Below are positions 5,457 to 63,939 of a DNA stretch of 64,000 bases, piece by piece (within the stretch, counting starts at the first letter, position 1; every line of letters begins with the position of its first letter). The stretch covers positions 992,001 to 1,056,000 of the forward strand of contig NZ_CP031598.1 of assembly GCF_008728195.1 (NCBI RefSeq), read 5' to 3'. Made by a program: the position numbers and the translations under genes. Origin of the DNA: Roseovarius indicus. GTDB taxonomy: Bacteria; Pseudomonadota; Alphaproteobacteria; Rhodobacterales; Rhodobacteraceae. Under the pieces are notes generated by a model. It made no database searches. It worked only from the letters and a program-made list of their open reading frames with translations, and had not been told where the DNA came from.

Positions 5457-6661
5457 CCGATACCAGACTTCCCGTGACCGTGCTTTCCGGATTCCTCGGT
5501 GCCGGCAAGACGACGCTGCTGAACCGCGTGCTCAACAACCGCGAGGGGCGTCGCGTTGCCGTGATCGTCAACGACATGTCGGAGGTGAACATCGACGCCG
5601 ATCTCGTGCGTGCCGATACCGAGCTGTCACGCACCGACGAAACGCTGGTGGAGATGTCAAACGGCTGTATCTGCTGCACTTTGCGCGACGACCTGCTCGA
5701 CGAGGTGCGTCGGCTTTCCGCCGCCGGGCGGTTCGATTACCTGCTCATCGAGTCCACCGGCATTTCCGAACCGTTGCCCGTGGCTGCGACCTTCGAGTTT
5801 CGCGACGAGTTCGGGGACAGCCTTTCGGATGTCGCCCGGCTCGACACGATGGTCACGGTGGTCGATGCGGTAAACCTGCTGAATGACTATGCCAGCCACG
5901 ATTTCCTGCGCGACCGGGGCGAGATCATGGGCGAGGCCGACGAGCGCACGCTGGTGCACCTGCTGACCGACCAGATCGAGTTCGCCGACGTGGTGATTCT
6001 CAACAAGGTGGCCGATGCCGGACCGGAGAAGACCGACGCGGCGCGTAAGATCATCCGCAGCCTCAACGCCGATGCGCGCATCATCGAAACCAACCACGCC
6101 AACGTCCCGGCCGGCGAGATTCTCGATACCGGGCTTTTCGATTTCGAGAAGGCGCATGAGCACCCGATGTGGGCCAAGGAGCTCTATGGCTTCGCCGAAC
6201 ATGTGCCCGAAACCGAGGAATACGGGGTGAGTTCCCATGTCTTCCGGGCGCGGCGCCCGTTCGATCCGCAGGGGATCCACGACGTGTTGAACGGACCTTT
6301 GCCGGGGGTGATCCGTGCCAAGGGGCATTTCTGGATCGCCACGCGGCCCGACTGGGTGGCGGAGTTCTCACTGGCGGGCAGCCTGTCGACGGTGGCGCCG
6401 CTGGGCACGTGGTGGGCGTCGGTTCCGGGGGACCGCTGGCCCGATCACCCGCAGGCGCGCACCTACCTGGCGAACCACTGGCAGGAGCCCTGGGGTGACC
6501 GGCGGCAGGAGATCGTCTTTATCGGTGCGGGTATCGACTGGCCGGCGCTTCGGGAGAGGCTGGAGTCGGTGCTGGTGCCGGAAAAGCAAGCATCGGGCCC
6601 CGACGCGCTGCCCGACCTGCCTGATCCATTCCCGCAATGGCGCCGGTCGGAGGCGGCATGA
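5453..6661 (+). CDS. zigA: COG0523 zinc metallochaperone GTPase (ZigA/YciC-like)
   Basis: A 402-aa second COG0523 GTPase. It has Walker A (Gly-Ala-Gly-Lys-Thr) at 16-20, Gly-Cys-Ile-Cys-Cys at 71-75, a Glu-Ser-Thr-Gly switch, Asn-Lys in the guanine-recognition region, and a longer C-terminal domain with His and Trp residues typical of ZigA/YciC. Such proteins hand zinc to key enzymes during zinc shortage and are usually repressed by Zur. The start ATG overlaps the stop of the preceding paralogue (ATGA type), and the next gene overlaps its own stop in the same way. The zigA symbol is by family likeness, not proof. Confidence 0.88.
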
Positions 6662-6912
6662 AAACCAACCTCGGCGCGACCGGCGTGCGCCGTTATCGGC
6701 GCTCCTGCGACCCGATGCGCGACTACGACATGCTACCCGCGCATCTGAGGCAGTGGCTCGCGCAGGCGGCGCTGCCGTGGTCGCCAGCCTCCTGCCGTCG
6801 TATCTGGCGCGCGGCACAGGCTGAGGGGGCAAGCCCCGAGGAGTTGCTCGCACGGCTCGACCATGCCGAGCGTCGTGCACTGGCCCGTGACAGTACGTCT
6901 CATCCTGCCTGA
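6658..6912 (+). CDS. DUF6525 family protein
   Basis: An 84-aa basic protein. It begins Met-Lys-Thr-Asn-Leu-Gly-Ala-Thr and contains the conserved block [14 protein letters not shown], which I recognise as the DUF6525 family of Rhodobacterales. No function is known for the family. The ATG overlaps the zigA stop codon, so it is co-transcribed with the zinc-chaperone genes and may belong to the zinc-limitation response. A start 7 codons upstream is possible but lies inside zigA. Confidence 0.75.
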
Positions 6913-6977
6913 CCGGTCAGGCAAACATCTGCAATGATCATGTTTCATTAAGATACGTATGGTTACCAAATGACGAG

Positions 6978-7314
6978 ATGACGAAGAACACGCAGCTAGG
7001 ACCGGCAATGGCAGGTTTTGAATGCCCTCCGGAACCATGGCCGCCGGTTGTCGGCCCAAGAGATCGTGAACGCCATGAAAGGTGGCAGGGCCAGGCTTGC
7101 ACCGCCCACGGTCTACCGGGTCCTTTCGGCTCTGATGGATGCCGGCCGCGCCCACAAACTCTTGTCGATGAATGCCTTAGTGCCGTGCCAGTGCGACATG
7201 ATGTGGGGACGGGTGTGGGTTCTATTGGCGCCTCTCGGCAAAGCCCTGACGACACAGATCGCCGATGTCGGTCAAGCGCTTTCGGCAGAACACATCGGAC
7301 TGTATCAGCGCTGA
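6978..7314 (+). pseudogene. broken Fur/Zur-family regulator
   Basis: A degraded metal-regulator gene. The start (Met-Thr-Lys-Asn-Thr-Gln) is in one frame. From about 7006 the recognisable part continues in another frame: Val-Leu-Asn-Ala-Leu-Arg, then Leu-Ser-Ala-Gln-Glu-Ile, then the winged-helix part Pro-Pro-Thr-Val-Tyr-Arg-Val-Leu, and Asn-Ala-Leu-Val-Pro-Cys-Gln-Cys. After 7200 the likeness fades and the C-terminal metal site with its Cys pairs is missing. At least one frameshift separates the two parts. It sits just after the Zur-controlled genes, where a functional zur would be expected, so it looks like a lost local regulator. A working copy elsewhere is likely. Confidence 0.7.
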
Positions 7315-8122
7315 ACTGCCGCGGTCATTAACGATACGAGCCGATTGCCCGTTCGCCCATGTTGAAAAGCTTACATGGGCTGTAATGTTGGACACGTCTT
7401 CTCCCTCGTAACCGCCTCCGACGCCCTGGAAAATGTAGGACGGCCTTCATTCTTACCGCTTCGAAGGTCGGGGCAGAGACAAATGTGCCAGGTGGCAAAG
7501 CAAGGGGAAATGTACTTACATCTCGGCTCTCCAGCCTGCGGGTGTTTGATCCGACGAATTGCGAATGCATGCTTCAGAATGAAGACGTTCGGGCGATGTA
7601 ATCAGCTCCCAGGTGTTTCTTTCGATACGGGCGAGTAGGGGGCATTATGTTATCGGTGTTTTAGTTCTTGAAGCTCCCGTTCGCCCCGCACAGCACGAGA
7701 GTCTACAATGTGGGGCAAATCGGGCTCATGTGATCAGCCAGCTGCAAGGCGAGGTCCGCCAGAAATGGAACAGTCGCGACCTGACCGCGCGGTTCACCGA
7801 GACCCAGCATCGGCGTAAACTCATCATCTCGGGCTATTCCAAGGGGGCCAAGCCGCGCTGGAACCTTGACGAGAATGAGCATGACAAGGTGCTGTGGTAT
7901 CGCGGCGAGGGCAGCTACAACAACTGGGCGTTTGCCTATCTGCCGGCCGAGCCTGTCGGAGCGGCAGTTGTGCGAAAAGGTACATCTCCGGAAGCTGGCC
8001 AAAATATTTCCTGCACTTCAGCAAACGCGAAAAGCCAGACGGGAAAGCCGCTGCACCAGTTACGAACCCCAATCTTCTGCACGCGCGATCGGGCGTTATT
8101 CCACAAAATCGGCGGCAAGCGG
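7315..8122. other. decayed region, one unrecognised open frame
   Basis: About 800 bp with no gene I can name. The longest frame (7613-8224, plus) contains a stretch at about 7740-7960 with natural-looking protein composition (…Asp-Glu-Asn-Glu-His-Asp-Lys-Val-Leu-Trp-Tyr-Arg-Gly-Glu…). It then runs into sequence that is antisense to the broken gene at 8123-8611. I take it as the remnant of an unknown gene flanked by other pseudogenes. Confidence 0.3.
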
Positions 8123-8611
8123 TCATTCGCTGCAAACTTTGCTGAAGTGCACTCTGCGGGACCAAGCGGACATCTTTTGCTCCGCGCCTCTGAGCCCAAT
8201 CAGTTGGCCGTTTCGGACGAATGAAGTCAGGGCTCCCGACAGGAAATCGTGCTGACTCTCGAAGTGGATGAAGTCGACGCTCTTACCGTCGCGGAAGGTG
8301 TAGACGGCGACGAACTTGCCCCCGGCTTTCGTTCCATCCCGGAATCGGATTTCGTCCACCCGTTCATGAGTGACGACGGGTCCACGTGCCCAGGTCGTTC
8401 CGGGCTTTATGGCCATGTCGACGCTGGTCGTATCATGGCAGCAAAGTCCGGCTGGTGGAAATCCGTCATTCTTCCGATCTTGCCGAAGGTGAACCTGAAG
8501 TCAGCGGCCTGACGGGAAACCGCCCGGGCTGTGTCTTTTGCATTCCAGGCGGTGACGAAGCCGTCGATTGTCGCGATGTTGGCCTTTTTTTTCGGTGGTT
8601 AGCGACAGCAT
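8123..8611 (-). pseudogene. broken SnoaL/NTF2-like protein gene
   Basis: Reading the minus strand from ATG 8611 gives an NTF2-like start, but only after a frame change in a run of eight A (8585-8592 on plus as T). One A too many would explain it. The next part reads Ala-Thr-Ile-Asp-Gly-Phe-Val-Thr-Ala-Trp-Asn-Ala-Lys-Asp, typical of SnoaL-like proteins. A second frame change near 8400-8430 leads to Val-Asp-Glu-Ile-Arg-Phe-Arg-Asp-Gly and Val-Ala-Val-Tyr-Thr-Phe-Arg-Asp-Gly-Lys. The protein cannot be made whole. Its function was never clear. It ends near the other remnants of this stretch. Confidence 0.65.
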
Positions 8612-8612
8612 G

Positions 8613-9220
8613 TCATGCCATCTCGACCTCGTAGAGGTCGAGTCTGCTGAAAGCTCCGCCGACTTCCATTAACAGACCTGCCGCCGCAAGCGGCCCGGCC
8701 GCGACGGGGTGAAAGCCGATCTGCCCAATCAGGTCCGACACGGTCGATACGGCGTCCGGATCGTCACCGGCCACGAATAGAACACGCCTGAAACCCGATG
8801 GCACGGGCGCGAACATGGTCTCAAAGGGCAGCGTATTGAAGGCTTTGACGGCGCGGGCACGGGGCGCCAGGCGTGCCACGACCTCGCTTCCGGTGTCGTC
8901 CGCGAGACCGTCGGTCTGGATGTCGGGGGTGATACTCAGGATGATGTTCGTGGCATCGACGAGAATATGCCGTGCCAGTCGATGTCGCGATCCAGCGCAT
9001 CGCGCACGTTGCGCCAAGGCATGGCGAGGGCGATCGTCTGGGCCTGATCGAGCAACTGATCTATCGTGGCCGGGATGAGAGGCTGATCCAGCCTGCCTAC
9101 CTTTTCGGCAAGGGTTTCCGTCGCCCGGCCATTCGCGATCAGGACCTGGTGCCCCTCCGCTGAAAGGTGCCTGCCAAGGGTGGTGCCGACCGTGCCGACG
9201 CCAAGGATGCCGATTTTCTT
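8613..9220 (-). pseudogene. frameshifted NADPH-dependent F420-reductase-like gene
   Basis: The minus strand encodes a Rossmann protein of the NpdG/F420-dependent NADP reductase-like family in two frames. The first part (9220 to about 8970) has Ile-Gly-Ile-Leu-Gly-Val-Gly-Thr-Val-Gly and the NADP loop Ala-Asn-Gly-Arg. The second (about 8970 to 8613) has Val-Asp-Ala-Thr-Asn, Lys-Ala-Phe-Asn-Thr-Leu and Phe-Val-Ala-Gly-Asp-Asp. A single base missing near 8970 joins them. The expected start codon also seems lost: an AGGAG is followed by ACACACC where an ATG would be expected. A sequencing error could explain the shift, but not the neighbouring decayed genes. Confidence 0.75.
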
Positions 9221-9287
9221 GGTGTGTCTCCTGTTCCGGTACGGGCGCCGTTGGCGGGCCCAAGATGTCTCGGGCGGGGGACTGCGC

Positions 9288-9450
9288 CTACGGTTTAAGG
9301 AAGATGAAGCCGTCGCGCCGCGGTGCTTCCGCCGCCGCAACGGCATTCCGAATATCGGCCAGAGGGTAGACGCCGCTGGCCCTGAACAGCGAAGGCAGAT
9401 CCGTGGCGAGCTGGATCGCGGAGCGGATAGCCTGTTTCACCGTTTGCGAC
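9288..9450 (-). pseudogene. C-terminal remnant of a medium-chain dehydrogenase (quinone oxidoreductase-like)
   Basis: About 53 codons on the minus strand ending at a stop (9288-9290). They read Phe-Arg-Ala-Ser-Gly-Val-Tyr-Pro-Leu-Ala-Asp-Ile-Arg-Asn-Ala-Val, then Gly-Phe-Ile-Phe-Leu-Lys-Pro at the end. This is the usual last part of NADP-dependent MDR oxidoreductases. The rest of the gene is absent: a stop codon lies just upstream in the same frame. It is one more gene fragment in this decayed segment. Confidence 0.5.
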
Positions 9451-9621
9451 CCAGTCCGGCGTTAGTCTGATGGGATATGCACTCTATCGATCATAGTCTT
9501 GTTGGCTGTGCGGAAGTGCCGACGCACCTTACGGTATTGTCAAACTCGGTATTTCCGTATCGAAGCCTGATAGGGTCGTATTTTCGAGCGCGCTACCATC
9601 CTGCTTAGGGATCTAGGCGAA

Positions 9622-10311
9622 CTAGGGTTCCAGTGCGTTCTTGATCACGACAGCCGCCTCCATAAGGTCTCCTGTCAGTCCTTCGACTCCAAGGTCCGGA
9701 TTGCCGATACGAACTGCCCGAATGATCTTTTCGTGGTGATCATGCTTGGCAAAGTTGAGACTGTTGTTCCTGAGGAGGTTGAGCAGGGGCCCGTATCTTA
9801 GCCACAGGATTTCGATGATACTGGTAAGGTCCGGGTTTCCGCTTCGCTCATATATGCTGAAATGAAACTCGTGATTGATGGCCAAGTAGTTCTTAATGCT
9901 TGGCTTCGTCCTGGCTGCTTCCTTGTCCATGGTCGAGTTGATGGCTTCAAGGTCATCTGCGAGTGGCTGGTTCGGTTCGGACGCGACAAGGCGAAGCGCT
10001 TTGCACTCAAGGTCAATGCGGATGCTGATAAGGTCTTCCAGCCGTTTTGCGTCGACTTGCGGGACCGTCACAGATTTTCTGGGCGCGGCCTCCAGAACGT
10101 GGGAAACGACAAGGCGACTCAAGGCTTCTCGTACGGGCATCTGGCTGGTGTCGAATACCTCGGCCAATTCCTTGAGCTTGAGTTTCTGTCCTGGAACGAA
10201 TTCTCCCATCATGATGGACCGGCTCAGTTGCGAGTAGACGTGATCCAGATCGGACATACGCCGGCGCGGCTGGAAGTCGGGGAGAGTGGCGCCTGTTTTC
10301 CGGTCATTCAT
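9622..10311 (-). CDS. GntR-family (FCD/FadR-type) transcriptional regulator
   Basis: A 229-aa regulator. The N-terminal winged helix (about residues 25-90) has Pro-Gly-Gln-Lys-Leu-Lys-Leu-Lys-Glu-Leu-Ala and Pro-Val-Arg-Glu-Ala-Leu-Ser-Arg-Leu, the FadR-subfamily signature. The C-terminal all-helical FCD ligand domain has Asn-His-Glu-Phe-His with likely metal-binding histidines. It is divergent from the hydantoinase operon. A TTGATCA-type motif lies just upstream of its own start and recurs before hyuA and before the peptide-binding protein at 29648. I infer that it is an acid- or amino-acid-responsive regulator of this catabolic island. The ligand is unknown. Confidence 0.88.
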   Translation of the reverse strand: MNDRKTGATLPDFQPRRRMSDLDHVYSQLSRSIMMGEFVPGQKLKLKELAEVFDTSQMPVREALSRLVVSHVLEAAPRKSVTVPQVDAKRLEDLISIRIDLECKALRLVASEPNQPLADDLEAINSTMDKEAARTKPSIKNYLAINHEFHFSIYERSGNPDLTSIIEILWLRYGPLLNLLRNNSLNFAKHDHHEKIIRAVRIGNPDLGVEGLTGDLMEAAVVIKNALEP

Positions 10312-10362
10312 GTGAGAGCCTTTTTCTTTTCATCGCGAAGGAATGTATAGCGAGGTATAAAA

Positions 10363-10376
10363 TTGATCAAGAATCA
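10363..10376. promoter_or_regulatory. candidate GntR operator, copy 1
   Basis: TTGATCAAGAATCA, containing the 8-bp palindrome TTGATCAA, lies 52 bp before the gntR start codon on the minus strand. A further TGATCA follows at 10378-10383. The identical 14-mer recurs at 29612-29625. Confidence 0.5.
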
Positions 10377-10551
10377 ATGATCACCGAATCGCATCATCGC
10401 TTGTGATGACACCTGCAATAGCCGCTTCGACGACCTCTGCATAAGTGCTGAGAAATGAAATTTCGCTTATATTTAGATATTTTATAACAATTTTCCATCT
10501 CGAAAACTCGCGCGCCTCCGTCAGTTGACAGAAAAAGGCCATGTGTTATCT

Positions 10552-10567
10552 TTGATCACAAATCACA
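10552..10567. promoter_or_regulatory. candidate GntR operator, copy 2
   Basis: TTGATCACAAATCAC is followed by AAAA, just upstream of the hyuA ribosome site. It shares the pattern TTGATCA-nn-AATCACAAAA with the site at 29612-29630. Binding here would block transcription or sit over the promoter of the hydantoinase operon. Confidence 0.45.
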
Positions 10568-10583
10568 AAAGGAGAGATGGAAA

Positions 10584-12608
10584 GTGTGGAGAGTTGGTAT
10601 CGACGTGGGCGGCACATTCACGGATCTTTATGCCGTTGATTCCGGAACTGGCGCCGCATGCACGGGCAAGGTGCTCACCACGCCCCAGAATCGCGTTCTC
10701 GGTGTAATCTCTGCGATTTCCCAGGCCGGACTTTCGCCGGAAGACATCGATCTTCTGGTCCACGGAACCACGACCGGCACCAATGCCCTGATCGAGCGGA
10801 GCTTCCCGCCCGCGGCGATGATCACGACCGAAGGGTTTCGCGACGTGCTCGAAATCGGCCGCATGCACAGGGAGCATCTTTACCGCCCGTACCAGACCAA
10901 GCCCGAGCCTCTTATCCGTCGCCGAAACCGTTTCGTGCTTGAGGAGCGCGTCAATGCGCGGGGCGCTGTCGAGATCCCGGTCGACCCGGTAGAGCTTGAG
11001 CCGATCATTGACGTTCTGAGGAAGCGGGACATCCAGAGCGTCGCCGTCTGCCTGATCAACTCTTATGCCAATCCGGCGAATGAAAAGGCTGTCGCGGAGC
11101 TGCTTCGCAAGGCGTTGCCCGACATCTCCATCACTATGTCATCGGACGTGAAGCCCGTCTTTCGGGAGCATTCCAGATTTTCGACGACAGCGGTGCGCGC
11201 CGTGCTTCTGCCGGTGATGGCGACTTATTTCGAGCGCCTCGAGATCGCGTTGCGCGAGAAGGGGTTCAAAGGGCGGCTCATGATCCTGAAAAGCAATGGC
11301 GGCATGATGTCGGTCGAGCAGGCGAGGACGCGGGTCGAGGAGTTGGTCGAATCTGGTCCCGCGGGCGGTATCGGTTATGCAAGCCGAATTTCCGACATGA
11401 CCGGGCAGACGAAGATTATTCACACGGACGTCGGCGGCACGAGTTTCGACACATCCGTCGTCGAAGACGGGCAAGGTTTGATCACGAGAGAATACGAGAT
11501 CGAGTTCGACATTCCGGTCGCGGTTCCGATGCTTGATATCCGTTCGGTTGGCGCTGGCGGTGGGTCGATCGGCTGGATCGATGAAGGCGGATCGCTCCGC
11601 GTCGGGCCGATGTCGGCCGGGTCGGAGCCGGGGCCGGCCTGTTACGGCCGGGGTGGCAATTGCCCGACAGTAACAGATGCGAACCTTGTGCTAGGGCGCC
11701 TCAGCAGCGACCTCAGCGGGAAGTTTCGGCTTGATGTGGATGCCGCAAGGCAGGCCGTTGGGACGATCGCCGAACAACTGGGCATTTCGATCGAAGACTG
11801 TGCCGAAGGCATGGTGCGTATTGCGACGGAGGCGATGGCACAGGCGGTCAAGATCGTGCTGGCCTCTCGCGGGCGCGATCCGCGAGACTATGCCCTCGCA
11901 AGTTTCGGCGGTGCCGGACCGATGCACGCCTGTGCAGTCGCCTCGGCCTTGCAGACGCCAAAGGTAATTGTGCCGCATTACTCCGGCGTCGCCTCGGCGC
12001 ATGGCGCGACGTATCTGAACCTCAAGCACGATGAAGAGATGTTCTACTTCACGGTTCTGAGCGAGGCCGCCCTTGATCAGGTTGCCAAGCAGTTCGAACA
12101 GCTGAAGGCACGAGCATCGACCGCGTTGCTGGACCAGGGGGCGGCGAACCGGGATGTGTCGATCAGTCATGTGATGCGCATGCGGTATGCCGGACAAACC
12201 TTCGAAGTGGATGTGAGCGTTCCGGAACGTACAATTACCGCCAAGGAGCTTGGTGCGATCGCCGAGGCGTTTCACCAGACCCACAAACAGGAATTCGGTG
12301 TTCGGTCAGAGGATTTCCCGATCGAGATCGTTGCGCTGGGCGTGACGGCCGAGGCGCCGATTGTTGATGCAGCAGAAAACAGCGCGGCACCTGTGCCTGA
12401 AGGGCAGGGCGACCCGTCGGAGCGGGATGTCTATTTCGCCGGCGATTGGTCGAAAGCCCTTGTCTACGGGCCGAATACCATTCTTCCGGGGCAGGCAATC
12501 GCCGGGCCCGCGGTCGTGGAAGATGCACATAGCTGCATCATCCTGCCGCCCGGCTGGACGGCGCGGGCCGACGATTTTCGCAACATCATAATGGAGGAGC
12601 AGGCATGA
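10584..12608 (+). CDS. hyuA: hydantoinase/oxoprolinase family protein, A subunit
   Basis: A 674-aa ATP-dependent subunit of the N-methylhydantoinase / 5-oxoprolinase family, which opens cyclic amide rings using ATP. The N-terminal ASKHA-type nucleotide motif reads Gly-Ile-Asp-Val-Gly-Gly-Thr-Phe-Thr-Asp (residues 5-14). A second Asp-Val-Gly-Gly-Thr-Ser-Phe-Asp phosphate loop lies near 280, followed by Gly-Ala-Gly-Gly-Gly-Ser. The start is GTG 10584, 8 nt after AGGAGA. An ATG at 10577 is out of frame. The B subunit overlaps its stop by 4 bp. The real substrate could be a hydantoin, an oxoproline-like lactam or another cyclic amide. Acetone carboxylase is less likely because no gamma subunit is near. 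Confidence 0.88.
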   Translation: MWRVGIDVGGTFTDLYAVDSGTGAACTGKVLTTPQNRVLGVISAISQAGLSPEDIDLLVHGTTTGTNALIERSFPPAAMITTEGFRDVLEIGRMHREHLYRPYQTKPEPLIRRRNRFVLEERVNARGAVEIPVDPVELEPIIDVLRKRDIQSVAVCLINSYANPANEKAVAELLRKALPDISITMSSDVKPVFREHSRFSTTAVRAVLLPVMATYFERLEIALREKGFKGRLMILKSNGGMMSVEQARTRVEELVESGPAGGIGYASRISDMTGQTKIIHTDVGGTSFDTSVVEDGQGLITREYEIEFDIPVAVPMLDIRSVGAGGGSIGWIDEGGSLRVGPMSAGSEPGPACYGRGGNCPTVTDANLVLGRLSSDLSGKFRLDVDAARQAVGTIAEQLGISIEDCAEGMVRIATEAMAQAVKIVLASRGRDPRDYALASFGGAGPMHACAVASALQTPKVIVPHYSGVASAHGATYLNLKHDEEMFYFTVLSEAALDQVAKQFEQLKARASTALLDQGAANRDVSISHVMRMRYAGQTFEVDVSVPERTITAKELGAIAEAFHQTHKQEFGVRSEDFPIEIVALGVTAEAPIVDAAENSAAPVPEGQGDPSERDVYFAGDWSKALVYGPNTILPGQAIAGPAVVEDAHSCIILPPGWTARADDFRNIIMEEQA

Positions 12609-56374: not shown

Positions 56375-56402
56375 TGAGGTGCCCCTAGTTTCCTAGACAC
56401 CT
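56375..56402. repeat. IS3 left terminal inverted repeat
   Basis: Starts TGAGGTGCCCCTAG, continues to TAGACACCT. The orfB stop codon (56393-56395) lies inside it. Confidence 0.85.
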
Positions 56403-57271
56403 GCCTGGTTCAGTTTCTGCTGTCTGATTTCGAAGTCAACGGGCGACAGCATGCCATTGTTCGTGTGCTTTCGTTTCGGGTTGTAGAATAGCTCGATGTA
56501 TTCGAACACGTCCTGCCTAGCGGCTTCTCGGGTTGGGTAGGTCCGGCGCCGGATGCGTTCTCGCTTTAGGAGCTGGAAGAAGCTCTCGGCGACGGCGTTG
56601 TCGTGGCAATTCCCGCGCCGGCTCATGCTGGGCTCCAAGCCATGCTGCCTCAGGAAAGCCTGCCATTCGCGGCTGGTGAACTGAGAGCCTTGGTCTGAAT
56701 GTAGGATCACCCGTTCCGTCGGCTTTCGTCGCCATACGGCCATCAGAAGGGCCTGGAGCGCCAGGTCTGTCGTCATGCGGGATTGGGCGGCCCAACCGAC
56801 CACACGACGCGAAAAGAGGTCGATGACGACGCACAGGTACAGCCAGCCCTCATGGGTCTTGATGTAGGTGATGTCGGTGACCCAAAGCTGATCGGGGCGA
56901 GATGCCTCGAACCTCTGTTCCAGCTTGTTCTCGGCTACCATCGCCGGCTTGCCAACATGACGGCCGGGACGGCGTCGGTAGCCCACTTGCGCAGCGATCC
57001 CGGCCTGAGATGCCAGTCGCGCAACGCGGTTCTCGGAGATGATCTCGCCTTGGTCGCGTAGATCATCCGTTAGCTTGCGGTAGCCATAGACCTTACCGCT
57101 GTCCGCCCGGGCCTGGCGGATCAGCTCGGTTTGACGTGCATCCTCCTGCGCGCGGTGGCTTAACGGTTCCTTAAGCCATGCGTAGAAGCCGGAGAAATGA
57201 ACCCGCAGCACCCGGCACATGGCACGGACGCCAAACTCTGCGCGATGCGCCCGGATGAAGGCGTACTTCAT
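56393..57271 (-). CDS. IS3-family transposase OrfB (DDE integrase domain)
   Basis: A 292-aa transposase subunit. It has a helix-turn-helix_21-like start and an rve core with the first Asp in Trp-Val-Thr-Asp-Ile-Thr-Tyr, the second in His-Ser-Asp-Gln-Gly-Ser-Gln-Phe, and the Glu in Asn-Ala-Val-Ala-Glu-Ser-Phe-Phe. The DDE triad is complete. It can start at ATG 57271, which overlaps the orfA stop. It is normally made as an OrfAB fusion after a -1 frameshift in orfA. The frame is open further upstream to 57559, as expected for such a fusion. Confidence 0.9.
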   Translation of the reverse strand: MKYAFIRAHRAEFGVRAMCRVLRVHFSGFYAWLKEPLSHRAQEDARQTELIRQARADSGKVYGYRKLTDDLRDQGEIISENRVARLASQAGIAAQVGYRRRPGRHVGKPAMVAENKLEQRFEASRPDQLWVTDITYIKTHEGWLYLCVVIDLFSRRVVGWAAQSRMTTDLALQALLMAVWRRKPTERVILHSDQGSQFTSREWQAFLRQHGLEPSMSRRGNCHDNAVAESFFQLLKRERIRRRTYPTREAARQDVFEYIELFYNPKRKHTNNGMLSPVDFEIRQQKLNQAGV

Positions 57272-57540
57272 TGGGACTCGCGCGCGAAGTACGCCGTTGC
57301 CTTTTTTAGGATGTCGCGCTCCTCGGTGACCCTGGCCAGTTCGCGCTTCAGCCGCCGGTTCTCGGCCTCGTGGTCCACGCCCGGCTTCGGGACAGGCTCC
57401 CCGAACAGCTTCAGCCACTTGTAAAGGGAATGCGTGCTGACGCCCAACCGCCGGGACACCTCGCGCACCGGATACCCCCGCACCGTGATCTGATGCACCG
57501 CATCGCGCTTGAACTCGTCGCTGTAATTGCTTGTCCCCAT
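57268..57540 (-). CDS. IS3-family transposase OrfA
   Basis: A 90-aa DNA-binding subunit. It has a helix-turn-helix with Tyr-Ser-Asp-Glu-Phe-Lys-Arg-Asp-Ala-Val and Val-Ser-Arg-Arg-Leu-Gly-Val-Ser-Thr-His-Ser-Leu-Tyr-Lys-Trp. A leucine-zipper-like coiled coil follows (Glu-Asn-Arg-Arg-Leu-Lys-Arg-Glu-Leu-Ala-Arg-Val-Thr-Glu-Glu), ending Ile-Leu-Lys-Lys-Ala-Thr-Ala-Tyr-Phe. Intact and typical for the IS3 family. Confidence 0.9.
   Translation of the reverse strand: MGTSNYSDEFKRDAVHQITVRGYPVREVSRRLGVSTHSLYKWLKLFGEPVPKPGVDHEAENRRLKRELARVTEERDILKKATAYFARESQ
57301..57307 (-). promoter_or_regulatory. A6G programmed frameshift site of the IS3 element
   Basis: On the minus strand AAAAAAG lies in the Leu-Lys-Lys-Ala codons near the end of orfA, just before orfB. 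This is the standard slippery heptamer used by IS3 elements to make the OrfAB transposase. Confidence 0.7.
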
Positions 57541-57571
57541 ATCGGCCTCCTTGCCTCAAAGTTAGGGTGCA

Positions 57572-57965: not shown

Positions 57966-58628
57966 CTATTGCATGAATTCAAGCGACAGTTGTCGACTGG
58001 TTCGCTCCGACTGAAAACTCCAGATGCCCGCATCGAATTCACGTCGAGAGATGGATAACAAGTCCGCCGCAAAACTAAATACTTCGCGAAGATAATCGTA
58101 GTTATCGTCCTCCAATCCCACGAGCTCAGCAAAGTCGCGGATGTGGCGATCTACAGCGATGCAATCCACTCCCACTAAACAGGCCATGTAATCGACGGTT
58201 TTTGGGCCGACACCTCTCACTCGCCGAATACCCACCCGAAAGCTCTTGTCCCGTAGGGCACTGCTTAACTCGGACGTGCTGTCAATTTCCGCCTCGGTCA
58301 GGAAGCTGACCAGATTGTCAAAGCGTGATATCTTCTCCCGATGCTCCCATTGCAAGAACTTTGGGCTTCCCTCTTGCTCGATCACCTCCATCAAGATGTT
58401 CATGGTCGTGGCGTGCGGGAAGGTTCTAAGAATATTGGCAATCCGAGGCTTAACAACTTTCGCATAGTTAAGCCCAGCTTGTAAGACCGAGTCAGCAAGT
58501 ACCGCGCCCATATGGTGATAAACGGGTCTGCAAGAGACGCGCGATCCCAGAATGCCGTTCCGAACAGCATGGTTGGCAACGCGCCGGGCGGCATGCAGAG
58601 CGTCTGAAGTGTTTAGGTTTTCTGCCAC
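57966..58628 (-). CDS. HhH-GPD DNA-glycosylase-like protein
   Basis: A 220-aa protein of the helix-hairpin-helix base-excision glycosylase superfamily. The hairpin reads Gly-Val-Gly-Pro-Lys-Thr-Val (about 139-145) with Lys143 at the place of the Nth/OGG catalytic lysine. Asp160 in Ala-Val-Asp-Arg-His-Ile stands where the catalytic Asp should be. There is no Fe-S Cys cluster. GTG 58628 follows AGGAAG. It is the last gene of a four-gene operon, 15 bp after the QueC-like gene. HhH/OGG-like proteins occur with QueC-like proteins in type IV CBASS. Here it might act on a deazaguanine or other modified base. Confidence 0.8.
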   Translation of the reverse strand: MAENLNTSDALHAARRVANHAVRNGILGSRVSCRPVYHHMGAVLADSVLQAGLNYAKVVKPRIANILRTFPHATTMNILMEVIEQEGSPKFLQWEHREKISRFDNLVSFLTEAEIDSTSELSSALRDKSFRVGIRRVRGVGPKTVDYMACLVGVDCIAVDRHIRDFAELVGLEDDNYDYLREVFSFAADLLSISRREFDAGIWSFQSERTSRQLSLEFMQ

Positions 58629-58643
58629 TTCTATTCTTCCTGT

Positions 58644-59264
58644 TTACGCGAGGCCGGCTCCCACCAAGGCATTCAGCCTCTCTACGCAGTTTGGACAGGC
58701 CCCGCAAGGAAACGAACTTGACGCCTGACAAGAGAAGGTGCGGCCGATAGGTACCCCAAGGTCCAGCGCTCGTCGGACGACGTCGACCTTGGCTTTTTCG
58801 CGGAAGGGCGCATGGAAGCGTACGGCGCCGACACCACGTGAGAGCTCTTCAAGGCCGTTCATGAACTCGGTGCTGCAGTCTATTTCCTTGGCATGATTGC
58901 TGTTGATGAAGCCCGAATACACGTCGAGGATTCGAAGCGTCTGGGCGCGAGCTGCGGCCACAGCGAAGAACAGCATCGTCCGGTACGGGAGGTACAGGTC
59001 ATCATCTGAGATGGCTTCTTTCCAAAGGTCTGCTTCCACGATCATCCGTGATGGCGAGCCCTTGAAGACGTCCGAGATATTCAGCCGTTCTGGCGGCATC
59101 GCCTCTTGCGGGAGGACTTCCTGCACTTTCGCCCATTCTGTCTCGGCACAGTGTTGGCCGTAATCGAAGAAGATGGGATGAACTTCTGTCCCTTCGTTGA
59201 TCAGCAGATAGCAGACCGTTGTTGAATCAAGTCCGCCAGAGACCATGACGACAGCCTTCTTCAT
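58644..59264 (-). CDS. QueC-like 7-cyano-7-deazaguanine synthase family protein
   Basis: A 206-aa ATP-pyrophosphatase. The PP-loop is Ser-Gly-Gly-Leu-Asp-Ser (residues 9-14), Tyr-Arg-Thr-Met-Leu-Phe binds nucleotide, and a zinc motif of four Cys (179, 187, 190, 193; C-x7-C-x2-C-x2-C) is at the end. True QueC is about 230 aa and makes preQ0 for tRNA queuosine. None of queD, queE or folE is here, and it sits between a kinase/deoxyribosyltransferase fusion and a DNA glycosylase homologue, all overlapping or close. It therefore looks like a defence-type QueC (as Cap9 of type IV CBASS or QatC) that may join a deazaguanine to a protein. ATG overlaps the upstream stop. Confidence 0.88.
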   Translation of the reverse strand: MKKAVVMVSGGLDSTTVCYLLINEGTEVHPIFFDYGQHCAETEWAKVQEVLPQEAMPPERLNISDVFKGSPSRMIVEADLWKEAISDDDLYLPYRTMLFFAVAAARAQTLRILDVYSGFINSNHAKEIDCSTEFMNGLEELSRGVGAVRFHAPFREKAKVDVVRRALDLGVPIGRTFSCQASSSFPCGACPNCVERLNALVGAGLA

Positions 59265-60592
59265 GAACGCGTCGCCCTTAGTCTCGAAATAACTTCGAAG
59301 AGGCCGTTTAGGCAGATATCCAGCTTGTCCGAATAGACCGCGCTCCCCGCCATCACCATGGTGTTGGTATTCTCTTTGAGTGGATCGAAGGTGATCACTG
59401 GCTTTTTCAGGGCAAGAGCCAGGCCAATTTCAACGAGTGTGCCTGGATCGCGCTCCAGCGGCAGTGCGAAAACCAGATCACACTCCTCGAGCAGACCAAA
59501 ATCACCCATATATGCGGCTCGCATTTCATGCATCGAGCTTTGCGGGTTTAGCTCTCCGTTCTCTTGTACCGGGCGGCGAATCCGAAAATTATGATAGGCG
59601 AGCGCCCGAAGTGCTTCTTCGAGGTGCGTGCGGTCGACGTAGGAAAAGTCGGGAGCGGCGAAGTATATCTGAAAGTCCGGCCGTGCATGCCAGGGCAGAA
59701 ATGTTCCGCCCAAGCCGCGCATTTGGTCGATGGAGAGCGCGAGGCTGCGCTGGACATCTCTTTTGAAGTCGTCCGGGTAGGTTGTGTGGGCATAGCACGT
59801 AGCAGCGCGCGCTGCCTTCCATCCGGCATCAAAGACGGCGCCATCCAGCATGGACGCGAAAACCGCTGAATACACGTCACCGACGCCGACTGAGTTGACG
59901 GTTTCGCCGAGGAGCGCCGGAATCTCGTCGACTTTGTCACCGCGAAGATCGAACACACGGCTGCCGCCGCGATTTTCCTTCAGAAGAATGGCTTGCGGCG
60001 ACAGATCGCGCAAATCAGCCAGCAAGCTGGACATATCCTCCGACGCGTTCTCCAGGAACATTGGAGACGATGTAGAAGTCACTACGGCGGCAATGTTCCC
60101 CTTGAACGATGAGAGCGATCGAAGGTCCGGGAGATCATAGGCGATATCGAAGCTTGCCTGAACATCCTCGGCAAGTAGGGATCTCAGGACCGTGAGGTCG
60201 TACTTTCCAGGGAAAATCAGACAGGTTTTGAAGGTCTTTAGTGCGTCAACTTCTCCGCGGTATTCGACAGATTTTTCGTCCCTCAGAATGTCTTGATATG
60301 CTTGGTCGGCGAGTTCGGTCGGATCGCCAATCGCCATGAGGTTCGGCGCGCCCTTGACCTCTGCCAGCCAGATAAATTCGCTGCATCCCAAGCTCTCGAG
60401 GTAGGCTCGCGCCTGATCGACCAGATAGCCGGGGCATGCAGCGGCCACGGAAAAGTTCGCGTCTATCGCCCACAGCCCGCGGGCCGCGTGAATGATGCCG
60501 CCGAGCCGTAGCTTACTTTCAGCACCTGCCTTCGGTAGGGTGAAATCTACGTAGACCTCGCCGACCAGCAGAAGGTCTTGGCTAGGACTCAT
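59261..60592 (-). CDS. PfkB-like sugar kinase fused to nucleoside 2-deoxyribosyltransferase-like domain
   Basis: A 443-aa two-domain protein. Residues ~5-295 are PfkB (ribokinase-like): Gly-Glu-Val-Tyr-Val-Asp-Phe near the start, an Asn-Arg-Gly-Gly segment, and the anion hole Gly-Val-Gly-Asp (236-239) with the catalytic-base Asp239. Residues ~307-443 are nucleoside 2-deoxyribosyltransferase-like: Ile-Tyr-Phe-Ala-Ala-Pro-Asp-Phe, Cys-Asp-Leu-Val-Phe-Ala, and Gly-Thr-Leu-Val-Glu-Ile-Gly with Glu388 as the likely nucleophile. One chain that could both cut or swap a base and phosphorylate a (deoxy)ribonucleoside is unusual. It overlaps the genes on both sides by 4 bp. Confidence 0.85.
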   Translation of the reverse strand: MSPSQDLLLVGEVYVDFTLPKAGAESKLRLGGIIHAARGLWAIDANFSVAAACPGYLVDQARAYLESLGCSEFIWLAEVKGAPNLMAIGDPTELADQAYQDILRDEKSVEYRGEVDALKTFKTCLIFPGKYDLTVLRSLLAEDVQASFDIAYDLPDLRSLSSFKGNIAAVVTSTSSPMFLENASEDMSSLLADLRDLSPQAILLKENRGGSRVFDLRGDKVDEIPALLGETVNSVGVGDVYSAVFASMLDGAVFDAGWKAARAATCYAHTTYPDDFKRDVQRSLALSIDQMRGLGGTFLPWHARPDFQIYFAAPDFSYVDRTHLEEALRALAYHNFRIRRPVQENGELNPQSSMHEMRAAYMGDFGLLEECDLVFALPLERDPGTLVEIGLALALKKPVITFDPLKENTNTMVMAGSAVYSDKLDICLNGLFEVISRLRATRS

Positions 60593-60972
60593 GGCGTCCG
60601 AGGCGCGAAGTCCACGCTGACCGATGCAACTGGAGCCGATGCCGAGGAGTTGACGCGCCCTTCATAGGTGAATCCCTCAGCCATGCAGTCTGCGAGATAG
60701 TTCAAGCTGGTTGGTAGCGCTCCCACGGTTTGGCCGCTTGCGTCGACGGCGAACAATCGGCCACTGTGCTCGATAGTTAGCGCCGTGTTGGCCGGAGGAA
60801 CCCCGCCGCTAGCGGCGAAGTAGTCACACTGCTCGACCTCTTCGAGGACGCAGGAGAACGCCCGGGCACAGCGATCCTCCCCACTTGCGCCGCCACTCCC
60901 GGCTCCTTCGCCGCCCTCTTTGGGGCGCGAGCCGGGGTAGTCCGAGAAGCTTCCAGAGCCAGTGCTACCCAT
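60589..60972 (-). CDS. small Gly-rich protein with Met-Gly-Ser-Thr-Gly start, putative QueC-like enzyme target
   Basis: A 127-aa protein that I do not assign to a named family. It begins Met-Gly-Ser-Thr-Gly-Ser-Gly-Ser-Phe-Ser-Asp-Tyr. A Gly/Ser-rich stretch to about residue 32 follows, then a folded-looking part with Cys at 35, 41, 49 and 90. ATG 60972 has GAGGG 6 nt upstream. A TTG four codons earlier is less likely. Met before Gly is normally removed, which would leave a free N-terminal Gly. It is the first gene of the operon, and its stop overlaps the kinase-fusion start. I infer that it is the substrate or sensor on which the QueC-like enzyme acts. Confidence 0.75.
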   Translation of the reverse strand: MGSTGSGSFSDYPGSRPKEGGEGAGSGGASGEDRCARAFSCVLEEVEQCDYFAASGGVPPANTALTIEHSGRLFAVDASGQTVGALPTSLNYLADCMAEGFTYEGRVNSSASAPVASVSVDFAPRTP

Positions 60973-61395: not shown

Positions 61396-63939
61396 ATGTC
61401 TTCAGTACTGAAACTTTTCCGCCTTACATTCTTTCTGGTTCTCTACTTCTTTATATGCATGTTTGCGGTGATCACTCTGCTTCAGGATTGGTCTGATGGT
61501 GCACAGATGCTGTTTTCGTTCGGTGTTCCTGTCGTTCTGGTCTGGTGGCAAGAAAAACGGAAATCGCGGAAAGTCGCTGCAAAAGCGCCAGCCGGGGGAA
61601 GTTACGAAACTCGAACATCGCGACCTGAGCCGGTGCCGCGCCCAAGTGCCTACGAGAAGCGTATAGAGCGTGAGCGCGAACGAACTCGCGGAGCCATTGC
61701 GTCCAAAGCGCCAGCTGCCGTTCAAGCCTATTCCCCACCAAAGCAGGACTACGCTGAAATCGTTCTGCCTGGAAAGTCTGCGGCGCCGGAACTTGCAGCG
61801 GCCGCTGAACGAAACCAGCCCTCGCGAGTGACATCGCGCGCATCGACCCGATCAACGAAAAGCGGGTGGGTTCCGTCAAGCGAAGCTGCTAGCGTGGCCG
61901 GCCGCAACATCGGCGGGATGGTCTATGTCGGCACGCCTCCCTTGTTGAACACCTACGGGTATCGTGACAAATGCCGAGCCTATATCGATCCGTCCCTGTC
62001 GGTCGCGCGCTCTGGCGCCGACAAAGCTGGTGAAGGTATGCCCTACTGGCCAGGGTACTCGGATATCTCACCTCAGTGCCGGGCGACCTACCTCGATTGG
62101 CTGGCCAGCGGGCGAAACGATGCCTCATATAACCCCGGGTACATGTTCCTGTACTTTTATGGGCTGGAGCGTCGCTTCTTCGTCGATCAGTCCAACGAAG
62201 ATGCCAAGGATATCGTCCAGGAAGTCCGGCGGCTGCAGTCACTTTACCCTGACAACCACTCCGTCAGGCGCTATTTGGGCGAGTTCCTCGACATTGCGAT
62301 GCTTGCCGAAACCGACCTCGACGCTATCGAGCCGATTTTCGAGAAGCAGGGCTGGGAACTTCCGTTCTCACTCAAATACGCAATCGGAGCCCGGATCGAC
62401 AAAGGAGAAAACCTGACAGCTGATTGGTTGCTGAGTTGGTTCATCTGCCATCCGGAAACAAATCTGAGAACTCCTGCGACGCGGTGTCGTGACGAGTTCG
62501 TCGCTCTTTTCCGCATGCGGTTTGATCGGCGTTTTCCTAGTGGGCTCAAGGTGACCAAACCCCGGAAATCACTCACGGCATCCTATCGAGCCGCTTCCAG
62601 CGAATTTCAGGGGGCCGCCAACCCAACCGTGGACGGGAAGCCAGTCCCGGATATTTCCGGCCTGCGCAAACCGGTCGAGATTGCCCAGGAGTTGGCTGAT
62701 GAGGTGATGAACGATCTCGAAAAGCTCAGTCGCGTCTTGGGCCGAAATCCTGATGGCCGCGGAAGCCTGGAAGCGCATGCCTTGCTACCCTCTGAACTGT
62801 GGGATGTCTTCCCATCAGAGGAAATGGACCGCTTGAAATCTTGGGCAAGCACTATAGTCGATCGGGGAGTATTGGTGCCGCTTGAAGAGGTGATCGGACG
62901 TTTGGAGGGAGAAACGAGCGAGAAGATCGGGAAACGGCAGATGACAGGAGCGGCAGACGCGCTCGCCCGCCTCGGTTTCGGTCTGGCGCCCGACCCTCGG
63001 TTTGCACTCCGGTCGCCCAAGGCGGAGGAGCCTGTTGTTCTGTTTCGTCTGGGCGAACCCATCGAAAGACTGGAGGAAGTTTCCGACAGCTATCGAAGCG
63101 CCCTGATTGAATTGGCACTTGGGACGTTCGTTGCTCATGCGGATGGTCGCATCGCGGAGCCTGAGCGCAGGGCGCTGGAGGATCAGGTTTCCGCCGCGGA
63201 CCTAAGCGATCAGGAAAGCCGCAGGCTGCGCGCAAACCTTGAATGGTTCCTCGCGGTACCACCGGACATGACGCTCTTGCGCCGCAAACTGAAGGAAGTG
63301 GGCCAAGACGGCCAGGCCGCTATGCGGGCAGCGCTGGTTGGTGCAGCACATGCCGATGGCATTATTCACTCCGACGAAGTTGCAAGTATCGAGAAAATCT
63401 ACAAGGCTTTGGGTCTTGACCCTGCGCTTGCCTACTCGGACCTGCATGCCGGCGAAGTTGCGGATGGACCTCGCACTGTTCGTGCCTCGCAGCCGGGTCG
63501 CCCTGGCGAAGCGATACCTGATCTTGAGAAGGCCAGCGGACCCAAACTCGATGCTACGCGGATCGCGGCGATCCGTTCCGACACCGAGCGTGTTTCGTCC
63601 GTCCTCGGTAAGATTTTCGACGTCGAGGAAGAAGAGACCGGTGTCTTCGCGCCTGCCAACCAAAGCCAGTTGGCAGGGCTTGACCCGAAACACGGCGCCC
63701 TCGTGCTTGAACTGATTGTTCGCGAGCATTGGTCTGAGACCGAATTCGGGAAGATCTGCGCCTCGCATGGTTTGATGGCATCCGGGGCTTTGGAAGTCGT
63801 GAATGAATGGGCTTTTGAGACCTACGATGAAGCGCTGCTCGACGAGTATGATGGATATGACGTGTCTCCGGAGATTGCCGAGGCGGTAAAAGAAAAGATG
63901 AGTGCGGAGGGCAGGGATGTCGAAGTTGAAACCACGTGA
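61396..63939 (+). CDS. membrane-anchored TerB_N/TerB/TerB_C protein (Shango SngA-like)
   Basis: An 847-aa protein. Two hydrophobic helices (about 8-29 and 36-51) are followed by a low-complexity basic/Pro-rich linker to ~150. A TerB_N-like domain (~155-360) begins Trp-Val-Pro-Ser and contains Arg-Ala-Tyr-Ile-Asp-Pro and Tyr-Trp-Pro-Gly-Tyr. A TerB-like region (~565-680) has two Ala-His-Ala-Asp-Gly helices, and a TerB_C-like end follows. TerB-domain protein plus ATPase plus helicase is the gene set of the Shango phage-defence system. The next gene overlaps it by 23 bp and looks like the ATPase. Start ATG 61396 lies 10 nt after GAGGG. Confidence 0.82.
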   Translation: MSSVLKLFRLTFFLVLYFFICMFAVITLLQDWSDGAQMLFSFGVPVVLVWWQEKRKSRKVAAKAPAGGSYETRTSRPEPVPRPSAYEKRIERERERTRGAIASKAPAAVQAYSPPKQDYAEIVLPGKSAAPELAAAAERNQPSRVTSRASTRSTKSGWVPSSEAASVAGRNIGGMVYVGTPPLLNTYGYRDKCRAYIDPSLSVARSGADKAGEGMPYWPGYSDISPQCRATYLDWLASGRNDASYNPGYMFLYFYGLERRFFVDQSNEDAKDIVQEVRRLQSLYPDNHSVRRYLGEFLDIAMLAETDLDAIEPIFEKQGWELPFSLKYAIGARIDKGENLTADWLLSWFICHPETNLRTPATRCRDEFVALFRMRFDRRFPSGLKVTKPRKSLTASYRAASSEFQGAANPTVDGKPVPDISGLRKPVEIAQELADEVMNDLEKLSRVLGRNPDGRGSLEAHALLPSELWDVFPSEEMDRLKSWASTIVDRGVLVPLEEVIGRLEGETSEKIGKRQMTGAADALARLGFGLAPDPRFALRSPKAEEPVVLFRLGEPIERLEEVSDSYRSALIELALGTFVAHADGRIAEPERRALEDQVSAADLSDQESRRLRANLEWFLAVPPDMTLLRRKLKEVGQDGQAAMRAALVGAAHADGIIHSDEVASIEKIYKALGLDPALAYSDLHAGEVADGPRTVRASQPGRPGEAIPDLEKASGPKLDATRIAAIRSDTERVSSVLGKIFDVEEEETGVFAPANQSQLAGLDPKHGALVLELIVREHWSETEFGKICASHGLMASGALEVVNEWAFETYDEALLDEYDGYDVSPEIAEAVKEKMSAEGRDVEVETT

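Follow-up and report, generated by a model that had tools for sequence, protein, structure and literature searches.

A four-gene operon beside a Shango locus

The stretch analysed here, referred to as the window, comprises 64,000 nucleotides of Roseovarius indicus DNA (contig NZ_CP031598.1, positions 992,001 to 1,056,000); coordinates are counted from its first letter. Four consecutive minus-strand genes within it form a candidate anti-phage operon. They encode, in order, a small protein, a fusion of a PfkB-type kinase with a nucleoside deoxyribosyltransferase (NDT), a QueC-like PP-loop enzyme and a protein resembling HhH-GPD glycosylases. The first two junctions are 4-bp overlaps and the third is a 15-bp gap. 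Open reading frame (ORF) coordinates agree exactly with the layout in the original prediction, which had been drawn from the sequence without database searches. The genes and the features within them are listed below.

60589..60972, minus strand: small-protein gene, 127 amino acids counted from the ATG (ORF list)
60937..60972, minus strand: tail of the small protein, residues 1-12, MGSTGSGSFSDY; Gly2 is the predicted acceptor
60592..60867, minus strand: predicted HIRAN fold of the small protein, residues 36-127 (structure prediction)
59261..60592, minus strand: PfkB-NDT fusion gene, 443 amino acids
59291..59671, minus strand: NDT domain, residues 308-434, containing Glu388 (PDB sequence matches to NDTs begin at residue 308)
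58644..59264, minus strand: gene for the QueC-like PP-loop enzyme, 206 amino acids, a predicted base-protein ligase
58875..58886, minus strand: EIDC in place of the canonical base-site YPDC; E, D and C invariant in all 69 readable sequences
58686..58730, minus strand: zinc Cys motif CQ(x)6CGACPNC, residues 179-193 (alignment)
57966..58628, minus strand: gene for the HhH-GPD glycosylase-like protein, 220 amino acids, GTG start; Lys143 and Asp160

The ATG of the small-protein gene is preceded by GAGGG, five bases upstream, and by an in-frame TTG, four codons upstream.

Conservation and spread of the unit

A profile search of genome contigs with a 16-row PfkB-NDT alignment yielded 74 loci; the search is not exhaustive because it works through two short conserved peptides. 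The small protein and the QueC-like enzyme are each encoded at 72 of these loci and the HhH protein at 69. At 67 of the 74, all four genes lie on one strand in the same order, so that the co-occurrence elsewhere on which the prediction had been made to depend was indeed found. Among the incomplete loci, L013 and L052 reach a contig end and L076, L054 and L061 are cut or broken; in L072 a dGTPase-like gene replaces the HhH gene, and in L077 a transposase-like gene (identified by eye) comes next. Pairwise distances of the four proteins are correlated over 64 loci (r 0.78 to 0.97), the best of 500 permutations giving 0.25. The four genes are inherited together as one unit.

By record titles, the hosts include Alpha-, Beta- and Gammaproteobacteria, a Deltaproteobacterium, Bacteroidetes, Planctomycetota, Acidobacteria-type metagenome-assembled genomes (MAGs), Cloacimonadota, Paenibacillus, Cohnella and Peloplasma. 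Within these broad limits the distribution is sparse: among 36 genomes of the genus, and again among 398 in a phylum sample, the operon is confined to a single genome, the window's own, and no operon of the window type was found in E. coli by DNA similarity. A copy 95% identical to the operon lies on a Neotabrizicola plasmid and a 56% copy on a Cupriavidus plasmid; L004 and L006 are relatives 94-95% identical to the window operon. The operon's PfkB-NDT gene is present on 14 IMG/VR viral contigs, 12 of which also carry the tail motif; phage records gave no match to the window's PfkB-NDT protein.

A tailed small protein with a predicted HIRAN fold

Conservation in the small protein is highest in its N-terminal tail (consensus MGS[ST]GSGxFSDY), despite the predicted disorder of this region. 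Met1 and Gly2 are found in 69 of 69 distinct sequences and Ser3 in 68 of them; mean entropy is 0.70 bits for residues 2-12 versus 1.90 bits for residues 36-127. Gly followed by Ser or Thr at positions 2-3 occurs in just 7 of 867 neighbour ORFs. With its conserved Met-Gly-Ser tail the protein looks, by sequence, like an acceptor that is modified at its N-terminus; a role as base acceptor had been proposed for it at first. What that account had overlooked is the likeness of the tail to those of QatB and CD-NTases, as well as the folded domain behind it, residues 36-127, which has a HIRAN fold in the predicted structure. Searches of Pfam, PADLOC and NCBIfam gave no match to the small protein; weak library matches were obtained to two PHROGs (E 0.07 and 0.22) and to an S-layer protein in PDB (E 0.0048).

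The HIRAN domain of HLTF binds DNA 3' ends, and those of HLTF and Rad5 have a role in fork repair; lp_0118 is presumably another HIRAN protein. The likeness of the small protein to HLTF and Rad5 resides in the predicted fold of residues 36-127. It differs from them as a stand-alone domain with an acceptor-like tail and no helicase fused to it.

The three enzymes

Profile searches identified the NDT half of the fusion protein readily (Pfam PF05014, E 7.5e-15). The kinase half, likewise part of the original assignment, is weak by profile (Phos_pyr_kin E 0.2, IolC E 0.0015; no match to Pfam PF00294) and is backed by a GxGD motif, which we take to serve the kinase reaction, invariant in 16 of 16 relatives. 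Glu388 of the NDT domain, presumably the nucleophile from what is known of the family, is equally invariant in all 16.

The HhH protein gave no match to Pfam glycosylase families and a weak one to the PADLOC OGG model (E 0.0019), and its predicted structure is that of an HhH-GPD glycosylase. Lys143 and Asp160, which we take to be the catalytic Lys and Asp of the HhH family (a Lys and an Asp in catalytic positions figured in the original prediction), are invariant in one set of 40 sequences and kept in 62 of 63 members of another.

The third enzyme belongs to the QueC family (Pfam PF06508, E 1.4e-32) and, as predicted, has a zinc Cys motif. Its active site keeps SGGxDS, YGQ, the Arg of VPxRN, the base-reading Asp and the four zinc Cys, and its nearest solved structure (best PDB match) is Cap9, at E 1.6e-12. 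Identity with canonical QueC was ruled out, both by the canonical model (TIGR00364, 102.3 bits with a cut-off of 150.3) and by EIDC replacing YPDC. Overall, the predicted enzymes retain the catalytic residues expected of them.

A canonical queC, side by side with queD and queE, is found elsewhere in the genome of the window host, and 7-carboxy-7-deazaguanine (CDG) is therefore available there. TIGR03365 was discarded as a test for QueE: it models the Bacillus subtilis type, and just one of 14 control genomes gave a score above the cut-off, so that QueD and QueC were used as pathway markers. Eight Bacteroidota hosts (G067-G073 and G075) have PTPS/QueD-family genes and no QueC above the canonical cut-off.

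Sister operons

Two related architectures, B and C, neither of which figured in the original prediction, came to light in searches of plasmids and genomes. Sister B, read at 19 loci, encodes a small protein, PfkB-NDT and a QueC-like enzyme, often followed by a nitroreductase-like protein, an OGG-type glycosylase and a DNA adenine methylase, and at times includes a dGTPase annotated as anti-phage. Its hosts are E. coli, Citrobacter, Pseudomonas, Synechocystis, Moraxella, Rhizobium and haloarchaea. It is present in at least 18 of 5426 E. coli genomes, by partial DNA matches, and in 6 of the 398 genomes of the phylum sample. In E. coli and Citrobacter its neighbours are integrases or a heat-resistance island, and it comes with genes for OGG, a DNA adenine methylase and a dGTPase (L099:10808-16875, L100:10803-17569, L102:6642-12710). 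Phage records searched with the sister PfkB-NDT returned lone NDT domains only. The small proteins of sister B start with MSG in 14 of 19 cases and with MSS, MTG, MCG or MGG in the other five; Gly stands at position 2 or 3 in 18, and the second residue is Ser, Gly, Thr or Cys in all 19. An alignment of nine of these proteins with the window family reached 96% probability (hhalign, E 2.1e-9), which makes them HIRAN-like.

Sister C was read at three loci (L106 of Rhizobium, 5995-10357; L110 of Agrobacterium, 6001-11824; L098, 3184-9092). It encodes a PfkB protein (PF00294, 5.4e-10) whose NDT part, by eye, has no Glu motif; a TIR-TGT fusion (PF13676, 4.8e-13; PF01702, E 0.0014, below its cut-off); an Ogg-HhH protein (9.7e-25); a QueC-like enzyme (1.5e-38); and a ThsB-type TIR protein (9.4e-26) that starts with MGGG in 3 of 3 loci. 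SLATT domains are encoded in L110 (2.5e-37). Sister C appears to be a TIR system not described before, in which a TIR protein is predicted to carry the base tag. Across the architectures, QueC-like genes accompany Gly/Ser-tailed proteins and often HhH glycosylases, while the other partners vary. This recurring pairing of a QueC-like enzyme with a tailed protein is the main support both for a tagging reaction and for a defence function.

Genomic context

A complete Shango set, SngA, SngB and SngC, adjoins the operon divergently, in agreement with the Shango-type locus originally noted (window 61396-63939 and L131:4397-10414; SngA starts at 61396 on the opposite strand). On the side away from Shango the operon adjoins an IS3-family transposase (window 56393-57559); on this side the library searches extended as far as this element.

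In Rhodobacterales relatives the operon lies within prophage structural genes. In L010 (1329-16704) terminase, portal and head protease genes are upstream of the operon and a tape measure gene is downstream; terminase and portal genes are found near it in L007 and L014, and a terminase gene in L006. Such a position among prophage head and tail genes is a site typical of cargo genes.

Enrichment near defence genes, which the original prediction had proposed to score, was examined at 66 of the 74 loci with 230 neighbour ORFs, at most two per side, in two batches (145 and 85), and with 142 control ORFs taken from 20 sites on the same contigs at distances of 50 kb or more. At a threshold of E 1e-10, the 145 neighbours matched 289 PADLOC families and the 85 neighbours 137, versus 18 for the controls, an excess to be read as a strong sign and not as a rate, because many PADLOC models describe one protein and the controls were sampled differently. 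The families with most members among the neighbours were dGTPase in the first batch (8, with 3 in the second) and AriA in the second (6); no family had more than one member among the controls. Judged by this context, relatives of the operon lie in defence-gene neighbourhoods.

The commonest conserved neighbour is a dGTPase-like HD protein, found at 13 of the 74 loci, two of them duplicates (L067:11602-13056, L048:11630-12994, L072:3560-4975 and 10 further loci). Genes for an AAA ATPase and a PIN-like protein lie immediately upstream of the small-protein gene at four Bacteroidota loci (L063:6755-8582, L064:5811-7623, L068:6787-8599, L070:6795-8602). In Paenibacillus and Cohnella, the small-protein gene is preceded by a NUDIX gene, the end of which lies some 90 bp upstream (L072:579-1043, L077:8086-8556).

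Relation to known systems

Conjugation of a nucleobase to a protein was reported in 2025 for type IV CBASS (cyclic oligonucleotide-based anti-phage signalling system) and suggested in 2026 for Qat. The starts of QatB (MGTS) and of the CD-NTase (MGGS) are described as acceptor or essential site (PMC13279940), and Cap9 and Cap10 of type IV CBASS are treated as well (PMC11996544). The QatB tail is reported to reach into the active site of QatC. The operon resembles type IV CBASS in its Cap9-close QueC-like enzyme (PADLOC QueC, E 3.8e-26), its HhH-type protein with a weak OGG match and its Met-Gly-Ser-type tailed partner. It differs in having no match to a CD-NTase or TGT, a tailed protein with a predicted HIRAN fold, and a PfkB-NDT fusion. 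With qatABCD it shares a tailed partner and a QueC-like enzyme, but its 206-residue enzyme lacks the QatC extensions, judging by length, and retains the base-reading Asp that is published as Thr in QatC. Searches of the four proteins against Pfam, PADLOC and NCBIfam gave no match to CD-NTase, TGT, the ATPase QatA or the TatD nuclease QatD, as had been foreseen for the first two and for the Qat ATPase. Membership in type IV CBASS was rejected for lack of a CD-NTase match, and membership in qatABCD on the QatC model (NF041925, 17.8 bits versus a cut-off of 280) and the missing QatA and QatD matches. The profile comparison that had been suggested with Cap9, Cap11 and QatC was positive for the QueC model, weakly so for OGG and negative for QatC.

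A related QueC group beside PfkB-NDT genes, missed at first, is already in print: Libby et al. (2026) describe Cluster 4 of PF06508, with PfkB-NDT neighbours for about 89% of its members, and read it as purine salvage (PMC13329287). Sister B agrees with this cluster. Common to Cluster 4 and the operon is a QueC-like gene adjoining a PfkB-NDT gene, before or after it. The zinc motif published for Cluster 4, CH(x)5CxxCxGCxK, is fitted by eye by the sister B genes; that of the window family, CQ(x)6CGxCPNC, differs from it, and Cluster 4 membership of the window gene was rejected on this motif. As far as it is known here, the published account names no tailed HIRAN-like protein and no glycosylase. 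Literature searches, with most subscription papers outside their coverage, found nothing apparently related among the papers listed for HIRAN with deoxyribosyltransferase or with QueC, no paper for PfkB with deoxyribosyltransferase and antiphage, and a phage-collection paper alone for QueC with dGTPase and anti-phage.

Discussion

In our view the operon probably serves anti-phage defence, its QueC-like enzyme being predicted to attach a guanine-type base to Gly2 of the small tailed protein, whose predicted HIRAN fold is of a DNA-end-binding kind. The defence role is suggested by genomic context and by the relatives of the operon. Once Met1 had been removed, Gly2 would attack, through its amine, a base that ATP has activated in the active site of the QueC-like enzyme, much as published for Cap9 with CDG. 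PfkB-NDT may supply this base, starting from a nucleoside or a nucleotide; alternatively, it may read the tagged tail, as is reported of the TGT-like Cap10 in CBASS. On a replicating phage, DNA ends or forks might then be marked by the tagged HIRAN protein. The HhH glycosylase, whose place a dGTPase takes in one relative, could act on that DNA or free the base. We infer the base used, the choice between supplying and reading for PfkB-NDT, the role of the HhH protein and the trigger by infection.

Several observations weigh against such a system, or against parts of it. Only 2 of 56 members of the small-protein family match the Pfam HIRAN model, with a best E of 0.14, short of the cut-off. Most small proteins of sister B would expose Ser and not Gly behind Met, which speaks against a single chemistry. 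The neighbour excess has the limits given above, and on its non-Shango side the operon is flanked by an IS3 element. All 69 QueC-like sequences have Glu at the position of the Tyr that stacks on the base in QueC and Cap9. Finally, 6 of 41 hosts (Peloplasma, a Prevotella MAG, Defluviimonas, Cypionkella, Paracoccus and Pleomorphomonas) have neither a PTPS/QueD-family gene nor a canonical QueC, so that CDG made de novo is not the substrate there, barring missed genes. TGT was found in 16 of 16 genomes tested, these six included, and salvage of later pathway bases would still be possible in them. CDG would not be the general base of the operon, barring its salvage or overlooked genes, and the Glu substitution and the six hosts leave the earlier reading of the base as necessarily a deazaguanine unsupported. 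A tentative suggestion, which we regard as doubtful, is that the tag may not be a queuosine-pathway base at all but a guanine-type one (for example 8-oxoguanine or a phage-modified guanine), freed from dNTPs by dGTPase or NUDIX enzymes, from nucleotides by PfkB-NDT and from DNA by the HhH protein. The QueC-like ligase would join it to the HIRAN protein, and release of the base would be the immune signal.

Kinase, NDT and QueC-like enzyme make up a metabolic-looking set, and, given the PfkB-NDT neighbours reported for about 89% of Cluster 4, the operon might return a rare purine or deazapurine, as base or nucleoside, to metabolism, in line with the proposal of Libby et al. for that cluster, with the small protein as carrier or regulator. 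We think this unlikely, as salvage accounts neither for a tail conserved beyond the folded domain nor for the HIRAN fold, the HhH glycosylase, the prophage sites and the patchy spread, nor for the TIR and SLATT proteins of sister C. Clean-up of oxidised guanine without an immune role would give the HIRAN protein the task of finding stalled forks and the HhH protein that of excising the damaged base, while kinase-NDT, dGTPase and NUDIX enzymes clean the nucleotide pool. The HhH-GPD fold with its Lys and Asp, the part played by HLTF and Rad5 HIRAN domains in fork repair, the adjoining dGTPases and the NUDIX gene upstream in L072 all suit it; yet a repair set of this sort would be expected to be widespread and is found in 1 of 398 genomes, its neighbourhood is rich in defence genes, and it leaves the tailed acceptor and the QueC-like enzyme without a role. 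Repair of this kind seems improbable to us.

The pair of QueC-like and HhH genes, with its PADLOC matches to QueC (E 3.8e-26) and OGG (E 0.0019) and with Cap9 as the closest solved relative, could also be what is left of a CBASS or Qat relative, degenerate or cryptic, that has lost its signalling gene. This appears most improbable: complete four-gene sets persist at 67 of 74 loci, the acceptor is of a different fold, no CD-NTase, QatA or QatD match was found, and the QatC model scores 17.8 bits versus 280.

If the operon is indeed an anti-phage conjugation system, HIRAN would be a further acceptor fold for base conjugation, with TIR another in a sister operon, and the reaction would span several bacterial phyla and haloarchaeal plasmids. 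A group now annotated as purine salvage would become a candidate for immunity, and the hosts without QueD and canonical QueC offer a natural test of CDG as the base. Should the guanine-type tag and the TIR-tailed sister also prove true, a QueC-like enzyme paired with a Gly/Ser-tailed protein would constitute a general switch of prokaryotic immunity.

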